Assembly: GCF_013912375.1 (NCBI RefSeq)
Contig: NZ_JACETV010000002.1
Span: 1,054,001-1,118,000 of the forward strand
DNA from: Emticicia sp. BO119
GTDB lineage: Bacteria; Bacteroidota; Bacteroidia; Cytophagales; Spirosomataceae
DNA: 64,000 bases
Direction of reading: 5' to 3'
Position numbers and translations under genes: made by a program. Shown here piece after piece: positions 673 to 50,586 of the stretch. The stretch's first letter is position 1; each line of letters starts with the position of its first letter. The notes beneath the pieces were generated by a model that did not search any database, was not told where the DNA came from, and was given only the letters and a program-made list of their open reading frames with translations.

Positions 673-717
673 TGTAACAATTATCACGGACACGCAAAAT
701 ATAAGGCAATAGTTTTG
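673..717 (+). promoter_or_regulatory. Crp/Fnr-type operator plus -7 box, site A (upstream of tauE-like gene)
   Basis: TGTAA-N6-TCAC (673-687) has the GTGA-N6-TCAC geometry of Crp/Fnr dyads. It is followed by a -7 box TAGTTTTG at 710-717 matching TAnnTTTG. No TTTG lies 19 bp upstream of the box, as expected for an activator-dependent promoter. The dyad centre is about 40 bp before the inferred start point. The same 45-bp architecture recurs at 1563-1607 and 4361-4405. Confidence 0.72.
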
Positions 718-728
718 TAGCCGATTAA

Positions 729-1553
729 ATGATAAACGCTATAAAAATGAATATAATAGAAATTGTCGGTTTTGCTTCTTCGTTATTGATTGGAATTAGT
801 TTAGGGCTTATAGGTGGTGGAGGGAGTATTCTTACTTTGCCCGTTTTAGTATATCTTCTCAATGTTAATCCTATTTTGTCTACTGCTTATTCGCTGTTTG
901 TTGTAGGCACTACATCTTTAGTGGGCTCAACCAGCTATATGAAACAAAAACTGGTCAATTATCAGGCTGCCCTTGTGTTTGCTATCCCATCGTTTATTAC
1001 AGTTTTTCTCACCCGTAAATACCTGGTTCCGGCTATTCCTGATCCTATTGTGGAGTTAAATGGATTTGAAATCTCAAAGAATGTCGGAGTTATGCTCTTC
1101 TTTGCACTCATTATGCTGGCGGCTTCTTACTCAATGATTAAAAGTAAGAAAACTGATAAGCCAGATAATAGTCAGGAAGTAAAGTTTAATTATCTGATGA
1201 TTGCATTAGAAGGAAGTATTGTAGGAGTACTGACTGGTATTGTAGGGGCAGGGGGAGGTTTCCTGATTATTCCTGCACTGGTACTGTTTGCCAGACTACC
1301 CATGAAATCAGCAGTTGGTACTTCTTTACTCATTATTGCAGCGAAGTCATTGATTGGGTTTTTAGGTGATTTATCAAATCTTGAGGTAGACTGGCCTTTT
1401 TTACTCGAATTTACCGGATTATCAATAGTAGGAATTTTCGTTGGCTCTTATCTGGCTCGTTTCATTTCAGGCGATAGACTCAAAACAACTTTCGGTTGGT
1501 TTGTCTTACTTATGGGGGCTTATATAATTACCAAAGAATTATTATTAAAATAA
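729..1553 (+). CDS. Sulfite exporter TauE/SafE family (TSUP) membrane protein
   Basis: A polytopic inner-membrane protein of 274 aa with two homologous halves. Each starts with a glycine-rich helix: GISLGLIGGGGS near residue 24 and GVLTGIVGAGGGF near residue 165, the hallmark of the TSUP family. Members move sulfite, sulfoacetate or other small organosulfur anions. The setting beside a persulfide dioxygenase makes sulfite or thiosulfate export the likely role, which is inference. The ATG at 747 (MNIIEIV) is an alternative start; 729 lies only 11 bases after the -7 box, so 747 may be the true one. Expression probably depends on the Crp/Fnr-type site just upstream. Confidence 0.85.
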   Translation: MINAIKMNIIEIVGFASSLLIGISLGLIGGGGSILTLPVLVYLLNVNPILSTAYSLFVVGTTSLVGSTSYMKQKLVNYQAALVFAIPSFITVFLTRKYLVPAIPDPIVELNGFEISKNVGVMLFFALIMLAASYSMIKSKKTDKPDNSQEVKFNYLMIALEGSIVGVLTGIVGAGGGFLIIPALVLFARLPMKSAVGTSLLIIAAKSLIGFLGDLSNLEVDWPFLLEFTGLSIVGIFVGSYLARFISGDRLKTTFGWFVLLMGAYIITKELLLK

Positions 1554-1562
1554 ATACAGGAG

Positions 1563-1607
1563 TGTAATAAATGTCACATACTATTCAGTAGTGGAACAAT
1601 AATTTTG
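1563..1607 (+). promoter_or_regulatory. Crp/Fnr-type operator plus -7 box, site B (upstream of persulfide dioxygenase gene)
   Basis: TGTAA-N6-TCACA at 1563-1578 is the best match of the three to a TGTGA-N6-TCACA dyad. The -7 box TAATTTTG is at 1600-1607. Distance from the TCAC half-site to the box is 26 bases, identical to sites A and C. No -33 TTTG is present. The start codon lies 26 bases after the box. Confidence 0.72.
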
Positions 1608-1633
1608 TCTTAAAATAATAAACTTATATAACT

Positions 1634-3049
1634 ATGTTTTTTCAGCATATATATGACAAATCCTTGGCTCAGGGGAGCTATTTTATTGGTTGCCAGAAGG
1701 CGGGAGTAGCGATGGTGATTGACCCTAAAAGAGATATAGACACTTATTTAGAGATAGCCCGGCAAAACAATATGAAGATAACCCATATTGCTGAAACGCA
1801 TATTCATGCAGATTTTCTTTCGGGCTCAAGAGAGTTGGCAAAGGTTACTGGAGCGTCAATGTACTTATCAGATGAGGGAGGAAAAGACTGGCAATATGAG
1901 TTTGACCACGTGGGGTTAAAAGATGGCAATGTTATTTACGTAGGGAATCTGAAATTTGAAGTAATTCATACACCGGGGCATACACCAGAAAGCATAAGTT
2001 TTTTATTAACCGATACTCCGGCAAGTTCTGAGCCGGTTATGCTATTTACAGGTGATTTTGTATTTGTAGGTGATATTGGCAGACCTGATTTATTGGAGAA
2101 AGCTGCAGGCTTGAAAGGTACACAAAACGCAGGTGCTGAACAAATGTATAAATCGCTCAGAAGGTTTGACAAACTCCCTGATTTTATCCAGGTCTGGCCT
2201 GGTCATGGAGCAGGGTCTGCCTGTGGTAAGGCATTAGGTGCTGTGCCAAGCTCAACTGTTGGGTATGAGAAAATCAGAAACTGGGCTTTTAAATATCAGG
2301 ATGACAAAGATGGATTCGTGGATTATCTGTTAGCCGACCAACCAGAGCCACCGAAATACTTTGCTATGATGAAAAAACTTAATAAAGTAAACAGACCTTT
2401 ATTGACAGAAGTACCAACACAAACCAAACTATCAGCCCAACAGGTAAAAGAGGGGTTGGTTGCAGGCATTAAACTTATAGATACAAGAAATAAGGGAGAT
2501 TTTGCGGCAGGGTTTATTCCGGGCAGCATGAATATCCAGGGCAATAACTCATTTGCAACCTGGATGGGCTGGTTTGTTAATTATGAAGAACCATTTATGT
2601 TAATAGCTTCTGATACACAAATTGAGGATTTAACCCGCAAACTGATGAGAATCGGATTAGATAATGTATTAGGTTATATAACCGATGTAAACTCTTTAGG
2701 TATAAAATTAGAAAAAAGCGATATTATTACAATTGAGGAGTTTAAAACTTTAGCCGCAGAAGATGAGGTACAGGTTATTGATTTAAGAGGAGTTTCTGAG
2801 TATAAGAGCGGTCATATAGAAGGTGCAGAGAATATTTTTATCGGCACTTTACCACAAAATCTCGATAAAGTAAGTAAAGACAAACAAGTGGTAATTTATT
2901 GCCAGGGGGGTGATAGAGCAGCCATTGGCTATTCAATTCTTAAGAAAAATGGATTTAATAACGTAAAAAATTACTCAGCCGGAATGAATGAGTGGATTGG
3001 CAAGGAGAATCCGGTAATAATCGGTGAATTGGTTGGTGAATTTTGCTGA
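1634..3049 (+). CDS. MBL-fold persulfide dioxygenase with two C-terminal rhodanese domains
   Basis: 471 aa, cytoplasmic. Residues 1-250 are a metallo-beta-lactamase fold of the ETHE1/Blh type: THIHAD (His56, His58, Asp60), HTPGH (His112, His116) and the GDFVFVGDIGRPDL segment specific to persulfide dioxygenases. These oxidise glutathione or low-molecular-weight persulfide to sulfite. Two rhodanese-like domains follow (about 265-355 and 370-471). The first lacks a recognisable active-site Cys; the second has Cys423 in CQGGDRA and so can carry sulfane sulfur. Its own operator (1563-1607) precedes it. With the neighbouring exporter it forms a plausible chain: persulfide to sulfite to export. Confidence 0.9.
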   Translation: MFFQHIYDKSLAQGSYFIGCQKAGVAMVIDPKRDIDTYLEIARQNNMKITHIAETHIHADFLSGSRELAKVTGASMYLSDEGGKDWQYEFDHVGLKDGNVIYVGNLKFEVIHTPGHTPESISFLLTDTPASSEPVMLFTGDFVFVGDIGRPDLLEKAAGLKGTQNAGAEQMYKSLRRFDKLPDFIQVWPGHGAGSACGKALGAVPSSTVGYEKIRNWAFKYQDDKDGFVDYLLADQPEPPKYFAMMKKLNKVNRPLLTEVPTQTKLSAQQVKEGLVAGIKLIDTRNKGDFAAGFIPGSMNIQGNNSFATWMGWFVNYEEPFMLIASDTQIEDLTRKLMRIGLDNVLGYITDVNSLGIKLEKSDIITIEEFKTLAAEDEVQVIDLRGVSEYKSGHIEGAENIFIGTLPQNLDKVSKDKQVVIYCQGGDRAAIGYSILKKNGFNNVKNYSAGMNEWIGKENPVIIGELVGEFC

Positions 3050-3201
3050 TAATGAACTTCAAACCCTCATCTGAACTACCGGATGAGGGTTTTGTTTTTG
3101 ATAATAGCGTTATTATAAGAGGTTATTTGAATAGAAACAGGTATTCAGCCTATGTATTTCAGTAGCTGATGTAGCATATAATTTTAACTTGAGATGTCTG
3201 A

Positions 3202-4248
3202 ATGAATAATAAAATTAATGAAAAAGAAGTTAAACGGCTTTTTGTCATTTTAAAAATTCTGGTACTACTGATATTCATTACAATAGGGAGCCTGATTGCC
3301 GGAACATTTCTGAGTAATACCTCTATAAAACTCCATACTGATTCAAAGAAACCCTTTGTAAAGATTGATACAAACTTTACAAATCTCTGGACAGCTCCGT
3401 CAGACTGGCGATTGGTTCGCTTAAGTGCCGAAGAGCAATCAATGATTAAATACGGGAAAGAGTTGATTGCACATACAGCCGATTACCTTGGTCCAAAAGG
3501 AAGTGTGGCTTCAATCTCAAATGGGATGAATTGTCAGAATTGCCATCTGAATGCAGGAACTCAGCCTTGGGGGAATAATTATTTTGGGGTTGAGGCCAAT
3601 TATCCCAAATTCAGAGAGCGCTCAGGAGCAGTAGAAAATCAGGTAAAGCGAGTAAATGATTGTTTTGAGAGGAGTCTTAATGGAAAAAAACTTGATTCAA
3701 GCAGTCACGAAATGAAAGCTATTTTGGCTTATATTAAATGGCTTGGCTCAGACGTCCCCCGAAAAACCACACCACGGGGTACAGGCATATTCAAATTAAA
3801 AGGGCTCAGCAGAGCAACTAACGCAGAAAAGGGACATCTGGTATATGAACAGAAATGCCAGAGTTGCCATCAGGCTAATGGTGACGGGTTAATGGCTGCA
3901 AACGGTAAAAGCTATACCTATCCGCCCTTATGGGGAGCTCATAGCTATAATAACGGAGCAGGCTTGTATCGTATCTCAAATTTTGCCGGATATGTAAAAT
4001 ACAATATGCCCCTTGGCACATCCTATAAGCGACCACAACTGACAGACGAAGAAGCCTGGGATGTAGCTGCATTCGTTAATTCAATGCCCCGGCCTGAAAA
4101 AGATTTAAGCAAAGACTGGCCGGATAAAGCCGGTAAACCATTCGACCATCCTTTTGGCCCTTATGCCGACCCATTCTCTGAGGTACAACATAAATACGGG
4201 CCTTATAAGCCTATTAAAGAATGGAAAGAAGCACATAAGAAAAAATAA
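3202..4248 (+). CDS. tsdA: Diheme cytochrome c, TsdA-like thiosulfate dehydrogenase
   Basis: 348 aa. An N-terminal membrane anchor (about residues 12-36) places the rest in the periplasm. Two heme-binding motifs are visible: CQNCH at 111-115 and CQSCH at 219-223. Between them is NDCFERSLNG with Cys154, corresponding to the INGCMERSMNG segment of TsdA, where a cysteine takes part in unusual His/Cys heme ligation. The sequence around CHLNAGTQPWGNNYFGV also follows TsdA. TsdA joins two thiosulfates into tetrathionate, or does the reverse, passing electrons to other cytochromes. The direction here is unknown. It fits the surrounding sulfur genes. The Crp-type dyad of its neighbours is not seen upstream. 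Confidence 0.82.
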   Translation: MNNKINEKEVKRLFVILKILVLLIFITIGSLIAGTFLSNTSIKLHTDSKKPFVKIDTNFTNLWTAPSDWRLVRLSAEEQSMIKYGKELIAHTADYLGPKGSVASISNGMNCQNCHLNAGTQPWGNNYFGVEANYPKFRERSGAVENQVKRVNDCFERSLNGKKLDSSSHEMKAILAYIKWLGSDVPRKTTPRGTGIFKLKGLSRATNAEKGHLVYEQKCQSCHQANGDGLMAANGKSYTYPPLWGAHSYNNGAGLYRISNFAGYVKYNMPLGTSYKRPQLTDEEAWDVAAFVNSMPRPEKDLSKDWPDKAGKPFDHPFGPYADPFSEVQHKYGPYKPIKEWKEAHKKK

Positions 4249-4360
4249 AGCATTAAAATAAGCTGTTTTTTATATTCTCTGTTTACGCATGAGCTGCATT
4301 TATGATTTTTTCATGAGTGCAGTTTTTTCTTCCGGTTATTAATCAGGATTATTCCTTCAA

Positions 4361-4405
4361 TGTAACTTTTGTCACGGACACCCATCATGACCAAATGTAC
4401 TTTTG
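4361..4405 (+). promoter_or_regulatory. Crp/Fnr-type operator plus -7 box, site C (upstream of porin gene)
   Basis: TGTAA-N6-TCAC at 4361-4375 continues into GGACAC, sharing TCACGGACAC with site A. The -7 box TACTTTTG is at 4398-4405. All elements are in the same register as sites A and B. The site lies inside the longest open frame of the porin, which argues that translation starts downstream of it, at 4413 or 4425. Confidence 0.72.
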
Positions 4406-4412
4406 TATCATA

Positions 4413-5825
4413 ATGGCAAGAATTATGACACAAATCAATATCTGTTATGTGGTGGGGGCATTGTTTATATCAACTTATCTGGTTCAGGCACAAAACCCTG
4501 AATCAATAGCAGAAAAAGATACAAACAATTTAGGGTATCAACTCAGAAAAGGAGGAAAGTTTTACGTTCAGGCAAGGACTTATTTTTCAACAACAATCAA
4601 TGATGGCAGATTAACAGACTACTATGCTTTGGGAATTGGCGCAGGAATAGGGTATGAAACACCAAGAGTTTTCAGGTACTTTCAGGCAAGGGTGAGCGGG
4701 TATTCTATGTTTAATGTGGCTTCTTCGAATCTACAAAAAACCGATCCTCGCACCAACCAGTTGAATCGGTATGAAATAGGATTATTTGATATTGAAAATC
4801 CAGACAATCATAAAGATTTAAACCATCTGGAAGAACTTTATATTAAGGCATTTGTAAGTACAAAATCAAAGATTATTGTCGGTAGGCAAATACCACAGAC
4901 ACCCTTCATTAATCCGCAGGACGGGCGTATGAGGCCGACCTTTGTAGAATCTGCTGTTGTAGATTTGAATGAGTGGAAAAACCTGAAGATTTATGGAGCG
5001 TATATCTGGCAGATGTCTCCCCGGTCAACTATAAGATGGTTTAATATCGGCGAAAGTATCGGTCTTTATCCGGTTGGCGTTGGAGTTACAGGAGAGTCCT
5101 CTAAATATAAGAATAATACTTCCTCTTCAGGTATAGGCATAGCGGGCATCAGTTATCAGAATAAGAGATGGAATATTCAGCTATGGAATAATTATGTTGA
5201 TAATATCAACAATACCGGGATGCTCAAAGTTGAATGGAAATCAAAACCAAACGCAGGTAAAAACTGGCTGTTTGGCGGACAATTCATTCATCAGAATACT
5301 TTAGGCGATGGGGGTAATGAAGACCCTGCAAAAGCCTATGCTCAGAAGGGCAATGGCGCAAATATTATTTCAGGGCGGCTCGGGCAACAATCAAACAAAT
5401 TTACGTGGTTTCTGAATGCGACCAGAATCACAGATAAAGGTCGCTACCTTATGCCACGCGAGTGGGGCAGAGATCCGTTTTATACCTTTATCCCCCGTGA
5501 AAAGAACGAAGGCTTTGGCGATTTAACCGCTGTTACAGTTAATACTTTCTGTACTATACAGAATCATATCAGACTTGAGCTAAGTGCCGGATATTTTCAG
5601 CTGCCCGACGTAAAAAACTTCACGCTCAATAAATATGGTATGCCTTCTTATGCCCAGGTTAACCTTGGGCTGACCTACCAGTTTGAAAATTATCTGAAAG
5701 GCTTGAATCTTCTTTTGCTGATTGCGCGGAAAGACCAGATCGGTGAAACCTACCAGAAAGACCGATTCGTGCTCAACAAAGTGAATATGACACACCTCAA
5801 CCTGATTCTCAATTATCAATATTAA
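4413..5825 (+). CDS. OprD-like outer-membrane porin
   Basis: The open frame begins at a GTG at 4317, but that start lacks a signal peptide and overlaps the promoter. The ATG at 4413 (or 4425) gives a signal peptide ending in YLVQAQ, so 4413 was chosen (470 aa). The mature part is rich in alternating aromatic/hydrophobic strands and ends in LILNYQY, a C-terminal aromatic strand typical of barrel proteins. PREWGRDPFYTF and the downstream GYFQLPDV segment resemble Bacteroidota OprD-family porins. The likely role is diffusion of a small anion across the outer membrane. Co-control with the sulfur genes suggests thiosulfate or sulfite as cargo, which is inference. Confidence 0.72.
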   Translation: MARIMTQINICYVVGALFISTYLVQAQNPESIAEKDTNNLGYQLRKGGKFYVQARTYFSTTINDGRLTDYYALGIGAGIGYETPRVFRYFQARVSGYSMFNVASSNLQKTDPRTNQLNRYEIGLFDIENPDNHKDLNHLEELYIKAFVSTKSKIIVGRQIPQTPFINPQDGRMRPTFVESAVVDLNEWKNLKIYGAYIWQMSPRSTIRWFNIGESIGLYPVGVGVTGESSKYKNNTSSSGIGIAGISYQNKRWNIQLWNNYVDNINNTGMLKVEWKSKPNAGKNWLFGGQFIHQNTLGDGGNEDPAKAYAQKGNGANIISGRLGQQSNKFTWFLNATRITDKGRYLMPREWGRDPFYTFIPREKNEGFGDLTAVTVNTFCTIQNHIRLELSAGYFQLPDVKNFTLNKYGMPSYAQVNLGLTYQFENYLKGLNLLLLIARKDQIGETYQKDRFVLNKVNMTHLNLILNYQY

Positions 5826-5839
5826 ATAAAACGAACCTT

Positions 5840-6415
5840 ATGAATCAAATTATGGAGTTGATCACTCAACCCTGGCCCTGGTATGTGGCCGGGCCTCTTA
5901 TTGGTCTTACAGTACCTACGCTTTTGCTGATTGGGAACAAGTCCTTTGGCATTTCCTCTTCACTCAGGCATATATGTGCCGCCTGTTTGCCGGCAGGCAT
6001 TCCGTTTTTTAACTATGACTGGAAAAAAGAAATCTGGAATCTCGTATTTGTGTCAGGCATTTTTTTTGGCGGAGTAATTGCTACTAATTTTCTTGAAAAC
6101 CCCGATACCTTTATTCTTTCAGAGCGAACAATTACAGATTTAAAAAAACTTGGAATCCATGATTTTGCAGGGCTAATGCCTGCTGATTTATTTTCTGTTA
6201 ATGCGCTGTTTACTATAAAAGGATTTATATTTTTTGTATTAGGGGGCTTTATGGTAGGATTTGGTACACGCTATGCCGGAGGTTGTACTTCCGGGCATGC
6301 CATTATGGGCTTATCAAATCTTCAACTGCCGTCGCTTATTGCTACCTGTTGTTTTATGGTTGGAGGAATTACCATGACACATCTCATTCTGCCATACATA
6401 TTTAAGTTATTCTGA
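5840..6415 (+). CDS. YeeE/YedE family transporter, first half (copy 1)
   Basis: 191 aa with about four to five hydrophobic helices. The conserved [20 protein letters not shown] stretch near residue 140 carries the cysteine of the YeeE/YedE (Sulf_transp) family, whose studied member takes up thiosulfate. It starts 15 bases after the porin stop and is followed by its partner half after 35 bases, so porin and both halves are probably one transcript. Bacteroidota often split this transporter over two genes. A close paralog lies at 10084. Confidence 0.87.
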
Positions 6416-6450: not shown

Positions 6451-6942
6451 ATGAAAAATAGTCAAGAAGTTGCCACACAAGAAGAATTTGTCTGCGAGGC
6501 TCCTAATAATATGGTAAAAAAAGAGCCTCCGCTTGAAAATCTTAAGTACCTTATTGTTGGAATTATGTTTGGTATTATATTCGTAAAAGCCGAGATAATT
6601 TCATGGTTCCGTATTCAGGAAATGTTCCGGTTTCAGAGTTTTCATATGTATGGGGTAATAGGTAGTGCCGTAATTGTTGGTATGATTTCGGTATTTCTGA
6701 TTAAAAAATTCAATATTAAAACCATGAGCGGAGAAAAAGTAGATTTTCACCCTAAAAAATTCCAGAAAGGACAAATCTACGGTGGATTAATTTTTGGGCT
6801 GGGCTGGGCACTTACCGGTGCGTGTCCGGGGCCACTTTTTGCGCAAATTGGTAGTGGTTTTGTAGTGGTAATTGTTACTTTGATTAGTGCTGTCGCTGGA
6901 ACATGGGTATATGGCTATTTCAAAAATAAACTTCCTAACTAA
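6451..6942 (+). CDS. YeeE/YedE family transporter, second half (DUF6691 type, copy 1)
   Basis: 163 aa. After a hydrophilic N-terminus of about 30 residues come four predicted helices. FGLGWALTGACPGPLFAQIG holds the second conserved Cys of the YeeE/YedE fold. Together with the 5840 gene it would make one full thiosulfate-type permease. A clear intrinsic terminator follows at 6961, closing the porin-yeeE-yedE unit. Confidence 0.86.
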   Translation: MKNSQEVATQEEFVCEAPNNMVKKEPPLENLKYLIVGIMFGIIFVKAEIISWFRIQEMFRFQSFHMYGVIGSAVIVGMISVFLIKKFNIKTMSGEKVDFHPKKFQKGQIYGGLIFGLGWALTGACPGPLFAQIGSGFVVVIVTLISAVAGTWVYGYFKNKLPN

Positions 6943-6960: not shown

Positions 6961-6996
6961 AAAATAGCTCCGGGCATACCTCGGAGCTATTTTTAT
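6961..6996 (+). terminator. Intrinsic terminator after the porin-yeeE-yedE unit
   Basis: Stem AAATAGCTCCG / CGGAGCTATTT with an 8-9 base loop, followed by a T-run. Confidence 0.85.
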
Positions 6997-7098: not shown

Positions 7099-8730
7099 AT
7101 GAACTTCATTCATCAAAGAAAATTACTTTCTCTTAAATTAGGGCTTTTGGGGTTATTTCTGATGGCCAACCTGCTAAGTGCAACAAGCATTGCCCAGCAA
7201 TACGATTTGATAATTAAAAACGGAAGGATTGCAGATGGTTCGGGGAATCCCTGGTTTGCCTCTGATGTGGCAATTAAAGGTACTAAAATAGCCGGAATAG
7301 GGAAGTTTGAAGCAAGTGAGGGAAAACAGGTAATTGATGCCAGAAATCAGATTGTTTGTCCGGGGTTTATAGATGTTCATACCCATGTAGAAGACGGTAT
7401 CAGAAATGTATCAACGGCTGATAACTTTATCCATGATGGTGTTACGAGTGTGATTACGGGAAACTGTGGGTCATCGGAGGTGAATTTAGCAAAATTTTTT
7501 GATGAATTGAAACAGTTGCAGATAAGTGTCAATTTAGGTTCATTAATCGGGCATAACTCAGTAAGAAGACAGGTAATGATGAATGTATTCCGTGACCCTA
7601 CTGCTCAGGAGCAACAAAAAATGGAGGCATTGGTCGAACAGGCTATGAAAGATGGCGCAGTAGGTCTGGCAACAGGATTGATTTATATACCAGGTACCTA
7701 CTCTAAAACACCGGAAGTAGTAGGGCTGGCAAAAGCGGCCTCTAAATTCGGGGGTATTTATGCTTCACATATCCGTGATGAGGGCGTGAAGGTGAGGGAT
7801 GCAATAGAAGAAGCAATTAATATAGGCAGAGAAGCACATATTCCGGTTGAAATATCGCATTTCAAAATTTCAAGTAAACCACTATGGGGACAAAGTGATA
7901 TGACGATTGGTATTGTAGAAAAAGCCCGTTTGGAAGGAATAGATGTGAATGTAGACCAATACCCTTATACTGCCAGTAGCACTAATATGGGAACCATGCT
8001 GCCCTCATGGGCTTTAGCCGATGGTGATTCAATGGTGCATGCACGGTTGAATCACCCTGAAACAAGAAAGAAAATTCGTGATGAAATGATAAAAGGTGTA
8101 AAAGCCGATAAGCGTAAAAATTATGATTATGCCTTTGTTGCCCGTTACAGAGCCGACTCAACATTGAATGGAAAAAATGTGAGTGAAATAAACAGGCTTT
8201 TAGGCAGAAAAAGTGACTTGGCTACAGAAGCAGATTTGATTATGGACATGGTTGATAAAGGGGGAGCACAGATGGTATTTCATAAAATGAGCGAAGATGA
8301 TGTAGCTAAAATCTTACGATACCCAAATACAATGATAGCCTCAGATGCAGGCGTCATTCAGTTTAACAGAAATATGCCGCACCCGCGTGGCTATGGTTCT
8401 AATGCCCGTGTATTAGGCAGGTATGTACGCGAGAAACAGGTACTTCGTTTGGAAGATGCCGTTCGTCGTATGACGTCATTGCCAGCTCAAAGATTTAAGA
8501 TAGAAGACCGGGGGTTAATCAGAACAGGTTATGCTGCTGATATAGTAATTTTTGATAAAAACACAGTAGCTGATAAAGCAACCTTCGAAACCCCTCATGC
8601 TTATTCAGAAGGTATTGACTATGTTCTGGTAAACGGAACAATCGTATTAGAGAATGGCAAACATACGGGCAAAAAGCCTGGTGAAATTATCTATGGCAAA
8701 GGCAAACTTAATTCAGGCGCGGGTCAGTAG
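7099..8730 (+). CDS. N-acyl-D-amino-acid deacylase family amidohydrolase, secreted
   Basis: 543 aa with a signal peptide (about residues 1-33, ending in ATSIAQ). It is an amidohydrolase of the D-aminoacylase group: metal-binding HTH in GFIDVHTHVED, GVTSVITGNCGSS, the EISHFKIS segment, and a late SDAGV aspartate. Enzymes of this family hydrolyse N-acylated D-amino acids or related cyclic amides using one or two zinc ions. A periplasmic location could mean a role in peptidoglycan-fragment or D-amino-acid turnover, but the substrate is not readable. The end overlaps the convergent YqgE gene by 23 bases. Confidence 0.85.
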   Translation: MNFIHQRKLLSLKLGLLGLFLMANLLSATSIAQQYDLIIKNGRIADGSGNPWFASDVAIKGTKIAGIGKFEASEGKQVIDARNQIVCPGFIDVHTHVEDGIRNVSTADNFIHDGVTSVITGNCGSSEVNLAKFFDELKQLQISVNLGSLIGHNSVRRQVMMNVFRDPTAQEQQKMEALVEQAMKDGAVGLATGLIYIPGTYSKTPEVVGLAKAASKFGGIYASHIRDEGVKVRDAIEEAINIGREAHIPVEISHFKISSKPLWGQSDMTIGIVEKARLEGIDVNVDQYPYTASSTNMGTMLPSWALADGDSMVHARLNHPETRKKIRDEMIKGVKADKRKNYDYAFVARYRADSTLNGKNVSEINRLLGRKSDLATEADLIMDMVDKGGAQMVFHKMSEDDVAKILRYPNTMIASDAGVIQFNRNMPHPRGYGSNARVLGRYVREKQVLRLEDAVRRMTSLPAQRFKIEDRGLIRTGYAADIVIFDKNTVADKATFETPHAYSEGIDYVLVNGTIVLENGKHTGKKPGEIIYGKGKLNSGAGQ

Positions 8731-9259
8731 GGTAATTAGATAAAACCTTATATTCTCCGCCCATACTTTTTAATATGGCACGCCAGAACTGGTCGGCAGG
8801 GGTATCAAAAATGAAATGAGCATCGGTTTCTGAAACTATCCACGAATTCCGGTTCATTTCATCAACCAATTGCCCTGCTGACCAGCCCGAATAACCAATA
8901 AACAGGCGAATATCATTCTCAGATACCTTACCTATATTTATCAGGGTCTTTACACTCTCAAAATCACCCGACCAGTAGATTCCATTGCCTATATCAACGG
9001 CACCTTCTATCTGGTTGCCTAATCGATGAATAAAATGCAGTGTATTTTGTTCTACGGGGCCTCCAATAAATAAGGGCAGTTCGCCATAAACATTCTCTAT
9101 AACATCATCTAAATGTAAACTGGTAGTCTGATTCAAGACTAAACCAAACGACCCTGTTGAATTATGCTCACATAAAAGTACTACACTTCGTTCAAAATTG
9201 GGGTCACCTAAAAATGGTTCAGCAATTAATAATTTCCCTTTACCCACCGACATATCCAT
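8708..9259 (-). CDS. YqgE/AlgH family protein
   Basis: 183 aa. The N-terminus GKGKLLIAEPFLGDPNFERSV and the GSFGLVLNQ motif are diagnostic of the YqgE/AlgH (UPF0301) family, with GPVEQNTLHFIH and GYSGWSAGQL following. The family is widespread and structurally characterised, but its biochemical role is unsettled. Its 3' end overlaps the convergent amidohydrolase gene tail to tail. Confidence 0.9.
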   Translation of the reverse strand: MDMSVGKGKLLIAEPFLGDPNFERSVVLLCEHNSTGSFGLVLNQTTSLHLDDVIENVYGELPLFIGGPVEQNTLHFIHRLGNQIEGAVDIGNGIYWSGDFESVKTLINIGKVSENDIRLFIGYSGWSAGQLVDEMNRNSWIVSETDAHFIFDTPADQFWRAILKSMGGEYKVLSNYPTDPRLN

Positions 9260-9462
9260 CGAATATTTTTTATAGTATTATTTCTGATTTTATAATTAAC
9301 TCACTTAACATCTGAGATGTTTCCGAACTTTTATAATAGCCCTACAAAATAGAGGTTTTCAAAAGAATGAAAAAACAATTTCTTAAAAAACTTCTGTTGG
9401 AAATCCGAAAATTTTCAGCTATATTGCCTTGCAAATATGAAACCGCTAATCTTAAATGTTGT

Positions 9463-9972
9463 ATGGGCAGGAAAGTTTTAGTTTTAAATGCCGATTATAG
9501 TGCATTAAGTATTTGTACCGTTCCAAAAGCCTTTTCATTGGTTTATCTCGACAAAGCCGAGTTAGTGTCTGACTCCCAGAAAGGCTACCTCCGAACAGTA
9601 GACACCACTTACCCGCTCCCCTCAGTTATACGTCTCCATCGCTATGTAAGTTTACCCTTTAAAGGTGTCATGCTCAGTAGGCAGAATGTATTCAGGCGGG
9701 ACGGTAATAAATGTGTATATTGCGGAAGCCACGAAGACCTCACACTTGACCACGTAACACCAAAATCTAAGGGAGGCAAAACAAACTGGGATAATCTCGT
9801 AACTGCTTGTCGCCGCTGTAACTCCCGAAAAGGCGACCTCTCCCCTGAAGAAGCAAAACTCTCTCTCTCTCGAAAACCTTACAAACCATCTTTTATCATG
9901 TTCCTACGCGATTTCGCAGGCTCTATTGAAGAGAACTGGGTTCCGTTTCTGGGAATAAAGGAAAAAACATAA
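9463..9972 (+). CDS. HNH endonuclease family protein
   Basis: The frame is open from 9367, but homologous Bacteroidota proteins begin at the RKVLVLNADYSAL segment, so the ATG at 9463 was chosen (169 aa). A C-terminal HNH domain is clear: zinc-ligand pairs CVYC (Cys84, Cys87) and CRRC, the LTLDHVTPKSKGG core and NLVTACRRCNSRKGD. The N-terminal 65 residues are the companion domain found in this very widespread lineage of solitary HNH proteins, which are not linked to restriction systems. DNA nicking or cleavage is expected from the fold; the cellular role is unknown. A longer product from 9367 cannot be excluded. Confidence 0.83.
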   Translation: MGRKVLVLNADYSALSICTVPKAFSLVYLDKAELVSDSQKGYLRTVDTTYPLPSVIRLHRYVSLPFKGVMLSRQNVFRRDGNKCVYCGSHEDLTLDHVTPKSKGGKTNWDNLVTACRRCNSRKGDLSPEEAKLSLSRKPYKPSFIMFLRDFAGSIEENWVPFLGIKEKT

Positions 9973-10083
9973 AAGATTGGAAATATACTCATGAGTAGCT
10001 AAGGAATTTATTTTAAGAAACTTACGTTTGCAGTCTATTAATTTGATAGATTTTTAGTGACCTTAAAATAAAAACTTTATAAT

Positions 10084-50555: not shown

Positions 50556-50586
50556 TTTGACAATTAAAAAAAAGAACTTAATTTTG
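50556..50586 (+). promoter_or_regulatory. Promoter of the tRNA-Tyr cluster
   Basis: TTTG (50556-50559), 19 bases, TAATTTTG (50579-50586): an exact consensus match. It probably drives the tRNA array and possibly tuf. Confidence 0.85.

Follow-up and report, generated by a model that had tools for sequence, protein, structure and literature searches.

Three intergenic sites in a 64,000 nt stretch of the Emticicia sp. BO119 genome (the window, C12:1054001-1118000 of a 6.57 Mb assembly in 28 contigs) share a CRP-like dyad and a -7 promoter box at one fixed spacing, and lie upstream of sulfur genes. Comparative data support the original prediction, made from the window alone, of a Crp/Fnr-type class II operator over these genes. 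The sites are very probably operators of a Crp/Fnr-family activator, for which the gene at L051:7307-7942 is the candidate, and sulfane sulfur is slightly favoured as its signal; a class II Crp/Fnr activator that senses sulfane sulfur is, as a whole, the probable explanation. The operator, its fixed spacing, the content of the regulon and its association with a regulator gene come directly from computation on the genomes, and we infer that the L051:7307-7942 protein binds the site. In the proposed mechanism, a dimer would bind TGTRAY-N4-RTYAC centred at -41.5, its right half reaching onto the -33 element found in unregulated promoters of the phylum, and would recruit RNA polymerase to the TAnnTTTG -7 box. 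This would turn on genes for the disposal and use of reactive sulfur, i.e., TauE permease, persulfide dioxygenases, rhodaneses, a rhodanese-thioredoxin, and import by the porin and YeeE. Persulfide or other sulfane sulfur would react at Cys80 (with Cys86 and Cys87 where present), in a loop that replaces part of the CRP phosphate-binding cassette.

The three 45-mers at 673-717, 1563-1607 and 4361-4405 (all on the plus strand) were verified, and fit the scored pattern TGTAA-N6-TCAC-N22-TAnnTTTG with zero mismatches. Operator-promoter 1 consists of the dyad TGTAACAATTATCAC (673-687) and the -7 box TAGTTTTG (710-717), with a predicted start at 722 and the dyad centre at -41.5. Operator-promoter 2 has the dyad TGTAATAAATGTCACA and the box TAATTTTG (1600-1607; predicted start 1612), and operator-promoter 3 the dyad TGTAACTTTTGTCAC (4361-4375) and the box TACTTTTG (4398-4405; predicted start 4410). 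These are the only exact spaced matches in the window, against none across 100 dinucleotide shuffles, i.e., the motif is not at the level of shuffled sequence. With one mismatch tolerated, the dyad by itself shows no enrichment in the window (19 copies, 16.4 expected), and it is the fixed spacing that is informative. The sequence GGACAC directly follows the dyad in operators 1 and 3; judged by eye, the spacers of the three operators are otherwise dissimilar.

A dyad centred at -41.5 is in the standard position for class II activation. The numbering is that of Flavobacterium psychrophilum, where the sigma-A TAnnTTTG box occupies -12 to -5 of mapped starts, as given in PMC9723704; by this numbering, all operators that share the window's spacing have their centre at -41.5, in agreement with the predicted distance of about 40 bases. 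The predicted leaders are 22 bases to the start codon at 1634 and 25 bases to that at 747. The two tRNA promoters used as comparators, for tRNA-Cys (47149-47119, minus strand) and tRNA-Tyr (50556-50586, plus strand), are correctly described as TTTG-N19-TAnTTTTG, and provide a clean unregulated reference for this genome. A -33 TTTG is absent from the operators, as claimed (TTTG in 0/80 and TTG in 2/80 regulon sites), but this is not independent evidence and was dropped as such: the dyad's right half and the bases that follow already occupy -33, and the motif itself excludes most placements of TTTG. With the right half-site ending at -35, its last C and the G and A preferred at -33 and -32 cover the position of the -33 TTTG. 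Since the promoter has no upstream element of its own, we infer activation, with the protein supplying the contact. This layout predicts how class II activators would act at the unusual -33/-7 promoters of Bacteroidota, namely by covering the -33 element.

Across the host genome, the exact motif has four sites, against none for the reversed pattern that served as control in genomes. The fourth lies before a rhodanese-thioredoxin fusion gene (L050:7246-7953), which starts 68 bases past the start of the dyad. When purine/pyrimidine variants and up to one mismatch are allowed, there are seven sites against one control hit, two of them in a second sulfur locus: L051:8130, upstream of a second persulfide dioxygenase gene (8218-9639), and L051:9663, upstream of a rhodanese gene (9738-10064). 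Six of the seven precede sulfur genes (if the porin ahead of YeeE is included), which is the enrichment that had been anticipated. The three promoters of the window do share the site, but the regulon is wider than the three originally proposed, with at least six promoters in this genome. The seventh site, TGTGATATTTCTCACA, has one mismatch and is located at L052:6862-6906 on the minus strand (C1:949861-949905), away from sulfur genes, between genes named MBOAT-like and SGNH-like from reading their translations; it is probably a chance match, because the reversed control also gives one hit at this stringency. At up to two mismatches the motif is not enriched (28 matches, 30 for the reversed pattern), so that only the tight motif is informative.

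A Crp/Fnr gene had been expected near a homologous sulfur cluster, and one is found directly upstream of the second dioxygenase gene. This candidate regulator (L051:7307-7942, 211 residues) is on the same contig as the window, about 450 kb away. Among 21 hits to the cyclic nucleotide monophosphate (cNMP)-binding domain in the host genome, it is the only one that shows, by pattern, both an R-E-x3-R helix and a C-x5-C loop (one other frame, at L029, is cut off by the edge of its locus). A near-match to the dyad, TGTAAAAAAATCATT, lies just upstream of its start codon (L051:7277-7291) without a spaced -7 box, and possibly reflects autoregulation or chance.

Relatives of the regulator were collected by a scan with 12 aligned orthologues, and the best 80 of 579 confirmed loci make up the named set. 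Nearly all are named Bacteroidota, with one metagenome-assembled genome labelled Fibrobacteres, and several stop at contig ends. Orthologue identity is 72% in Runella, 70% in Flectobacillus, 68% in Emticicia and 44-54% in Flavobacteriales, Saprospiraceae and Prolixibacteraceae. The spacing between dyad and box in these loci has a single peak, at the window's value. With at least 5/6 of the box matched, 96 pairs have this spacing, whereas 41 other distances average 5.1 pairs (maximum 15); for at least 9/10 of the dyad and the full box, the figures are 44 and 0.20 (maximum 1). The adjacent distances (-1 and +1 base), which were left out of the 41, hold 1 and 3 pairs with the full box, and 4 and 13 with at least 5/6 of it. 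At least one site at the window's spacing occurs in 56 of the 80 loci. Three quarters of the sites (75/99, from 45 loci) lie in noncoding sequence no more than 150 bases from a start, and 7/99 are inside called coding sequence. The 75 well-placed sites precede sulfur reference genes in 37 cases (15 TauE, 12 dioxygenase, 4 rhodanese, 2 porin, 2 YeeE, 1 cytochrome and 1 rhodanese-thioredoxin), the regulator itself in seven, and other genes in the remainder. Core sulfur genes (TauE, dioxygenase, YeeE and DUF6691, labelled from ten references) account for 54 of the 592 genes that lie no more than four genes from the regulator, against 12 of 621 farther out. A core gene is present within four genes of the regulator in 30/79 loci, and some labelled gene in 54/79 (one of the 80 had no regulator call).

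Site and regulator also occur together across the order. A regulator match (E up to 1e-25) is present in 150 of 291 genomes, and a strict site occurs in 84 of these compared to 3 of the 141 genomes without a match (Fisher 2e-27, not corrected for descent); in all there are 174 strict sites, against 8 with the reversed pattern. In 24 of the 66 matching genomes that have no strict site, together with the three exceptions, up to one mismatch gives 62 sites against 18 control hits; several of the 62 adjoin the regulator gene, and three are the exceptions' strict sites. Within the genus (11 genomes), all six members with a close orthologue (at least 300 bits) have exactly four strict sites each, and all five with a distant regulator match (122-172 bits) or none have zero strict sites, a split that by our own arithmetic has a chance of 1 in 462. 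Strict sites occur in 87 genomes; when one site was taken from each of 30 of these, a sulfur or thiol-redox gene was found downstream in 28 cases: seven TauE, two dioxygenase, eight rhodanese (six of these calls come from matches of 43-48 bits to the reference for the dioxygenase or the fusion, and Pfam confirmed one of the six), seven matches to the rhodanese-thioredoxin reference (one was scanned and is a thioredoxin), three peroxiredoxin and one YgaP-like. The remaining two are fatty acid hydroxylase genes, in L184 (242 bases from the site) and L192.

The candidate regulator has the N-terminal cNMP-binding-type domain and the C-terminal Crp helix-turn-helix of the Crp/Fnr family. Pfam matches are PF13545 (E 7e-9, 36 bits, cut-off 27), PF00325 (25.2 bits, cut-off 21) and PF00027, which scores 26.9 bits on the protein, just below its cut-off of 27.5, and 27.9 bits, above it, in the genome search. 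An NCBIfam model of the family 2B encapsulin shell also gives a weak match over the cNMP-like domain (residues 14-126, E 3e-4), far under its cut-off. The model of the protein has a mean predicted local distance difference test (pLDDT) score of 87 and the CRP fold by Foldseek, with PDB 3dv8 and Thermus CAP as best hits. The CRP-type recognition helix Arg-Glu-x3-Arg is kept (S184, R185, E186 and R190 in the host protein); among 80 relatives, R185 is present in 79, E186 in 70 (Val in the other ten) and R190 in all. In a comparison of 100 relatives, residue 186 (CRP Glu181) is Val in 19, and the central base pair of the half-site is G:C in 92/146 half-sites of Glu members against 5/40 of Val members (half-sites from the 48 of 81 Glu loci and 14 of 19 Val loci that have sites). 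Uncorrected, the covariation gives a Fisher value of 7e-9, or 1e-6 per locus, and is suggestive; classical CRP position-181 mutants would lead one to expect such a loss of the G:C preference.

FNR, the [4Fe-4S] oxygen sensor, is marked by an N-terminal cysteine cluster. No such cluster was found in the host protein, which has no cysteine before residue 80. Cys80 is present in all 101 regulators compared (the host protein, the 80 named and 20 further sequences). Cys86 is found in 76/80 and Cys87 in 75/80 of the named sequences, and both are less regular among the 20 further ones. Some sulfur-linked members have one cysteine only, which points to Cys80 as the likely sensing residue, with Cys86 and Cys87 at most helping.

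Several observations weigh against the explanation favoured here. By the criteria used, 24 of the 80 named loci have no site at the set spacing, and 25/79 have no gene labelled by the ten references within four genes of the regulator. Of the 75 well-placed sites, 31 precede genes outside the sulfur references; the 14 of them that were scanned precede genes for SulP-STAS permease (3), YgaP-like (2), DUF983 (2), OsmC (2), and DsrE, peroxiredoxin, DUF6132, HMA and FAD-dependent oxidoreductase (1 each). Across the order, 66 of the 150 regulator-matching genomes have no strict site. The predicted dyad centre of -41.5 depends on Flavobacterium numbering. Once corrected for descent, the Glu/Val covariation has no significance (six tree changes, three supported pairs, median p 1). 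In the protein model, residues 83-85 have pLDDT below 50 and the block 81-90 averages 52. The Larkinella proteins (L096, L097) keep only Cys80 of the three cysteines, and in the sulfur-linked L197, L198 and L207 the entire protein contains a single cysteine. A triple-cysteine or disulfide switch common to all members was rejected, as several sulfur-linked members do not have Cys86 and Cys87, and an intramolecular disulfide or tetrasulfide cannot then be the general mechanism. Lastly, a broader signal would be compatible with the sites that lie upstream of peroxiredoxin, thioredoxin and fatty acid hydroxylase genes.

Cysteine-switch proteins are known in the Crp/Fnr family (CprK, FLP), and the same regulator and operators could respond to general thiol or electrophile stress (disulfide, peroxide), the sulfur genes being part of a wider thiol-homeostasis regulon. 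Sites before genes for peroxiredoxin (L174, L175, L178, L087), thioredoxin (L173) and OsmC (L110, L157) agree with such a signal, but TauE, persulfide dioxygenase and rhodanese are the commonest labelled targets, and the single-cysteine members could form no intramolecular disulfide, making this unlikely. It is more doubtful still that hydrogen sulfide, sulfite, thiosulfate or a metal ion is bound in the old nucleotide pocket in place of covalent persulfidation: Cys80 and its near-invariant neighbours do align with that pocket, and YeeE/DUF6691 and SulP transporters are also among the targets, but persulfide-handling enzymes are prominent there, and HMA (L086) is the one metal-type protein among the scanned downstream genes.

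An ordinary cyclic AMP (cAMP)-CRP regulon, with sulfur genes as a minor part, would fit the CRP fold, the CRP-type recognition helix and the CRP-like half-sites. It is very improbable given the cassette and the site list: the Glu of the cAMP cassette (GELG...RSA; GELGLF) aligns with Met, and the few sites in the host genome are mostly upstream of sulfur genes. By alignment only, the cassette Arg position is Arg in the host protein; it is Arg in just 4/80 relatives, and the cassette Ser is present in 80/80. CRP IGELGLFEEGQERSA aligns with CAMSLTCCLGQKRSE of the regulator. Finally, the three sites can hardly be chance matches, or sequence duplicated along with the genes without regulation, a reading to which the GGACAC of sites 1 and 3 might point but which is opposed by the spacing peak, the tie to the regulator gene, the lack of sites in congeners without the regulator and the otherwise unlike spacers.

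The candidate regulator and its sites resemble E. coli-type CRP in the fold, the helix (SREVVSR, compared to SRETVGR in CRP), the half-sites (like TGTGA-N6-TCACA) and a dyad that covers the upstream promoter element, with its predicted centre at -41.5. They differ in having a TAnnTTTG -7 box instead of a -10 box, a cysteine loop in place of part of the cAMP cassette, and a small, sulfur-centred regulon. The closest solved structure, PDB 3dv8 (a Crp/Fnr protein of Eubacterium rectale), is the best match by sequence (E 6e-18) and the best fold match by E-value; it shares the C-x5-C pair (positions of Cys80 and Cys86), and has Ile at the position of Cys87. Persulfide-stress regulators are known in several bacterial groups. 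Those of the FisR, SqrR/BigR, CstR and OxyR types belong to protein families unrelated to Crp/Fnr, and several are repressors; they likewise control persulfide dioxygenase, rhodanese and TauE-like permease genes, by the cysteine-based sensing that is here only proposed. A search for CsoR/CstR (PF02583, E 0.001) gave matches in 0/28 genomes, including the host, and in 6/14 control genomes; no search was made for ArsR-type (SqrR/BigR) or FisR-type proteins. Persulfide dioxygenase and rhodanese genes occur in many of the loci examined. Among the open-licence PMC papers listed, judged by titles and abstract openings, we found no prior description of a Crp/Fnr persulfide regulator and no persulfide-stress regulators of Bacteroidota. 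There is an even chance that these proteins form a widespread, undescribed Crp/Fnr branch in Bacteroidota, in which the nucleotide pocket has turned into a cysteine-based sulfane-sulfur sensor and which serves, as a class II activator, as the phylum's main persulfide regulator. If so, this branch takes the role in Bacteroidota that CstR, SqrR or FisR have in other bacteria. Given the operator, the regulator and the list of targets, persulfide regulation in Bacteroidota can be tested directly.

A second Crp/Fnr subfamily (L259-L261, L263, L264, L197 and L198) was also seen, in which a CIMSFLGG-like sequence replaces CAMSLTCC and the helix is TARVVVSR; a distant paralogue in congeners, with CIMSFLGG and this helix, likewise has Cys80. 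In L197 and L198 the subfamily's gene adjoins TauE and YeeE, and the sites there take the form TGTAAC-N4-GTAAC; the subfamily may be a parallel sulfur regulator.

The genes served by the three operators of the window, all on the plus strand, are borne out by Pfam. Operator 1 precedes a TauE/SafE-family permease gene (729-1553; PF01925, E 2e-43), which starts at 729 or at 747, the latter giving the 25-base leader. Operator 2 precedes the gene for a persulfide dioxygenase-type protein with a metallo-beta-lactamase fold and rhodanese domains (1634-3049), and operator 3 an OprD-like porin gene (4413-5825; PF03573, E 7e-8; start at 4413 or 4425). The porin gene leads into genes for a YeeE/YedE-type sulfur transporter half (5840-6415; PF04143) and a DUF6691/YeeE second half (6451-6942; PF20398, PF04143). 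A stem-loop search found terminator-like structures on the same strand after the dioxygenase gene (3061-3092), before operator 3 (4291-4325) and at the close of the porin-YeeE unit (6961-6993), with 12 such stem-loops in the region against 4.6 in shuffles. The positions of the first two, after the dioxygenase gene and before operator 3, suggest separate transcription units. Between them is a SoxA/TsdA-like cytochrome c gene (3202-4248, plus strand), which has no spaced site in the window; its homologue in a congener (L250) has one.

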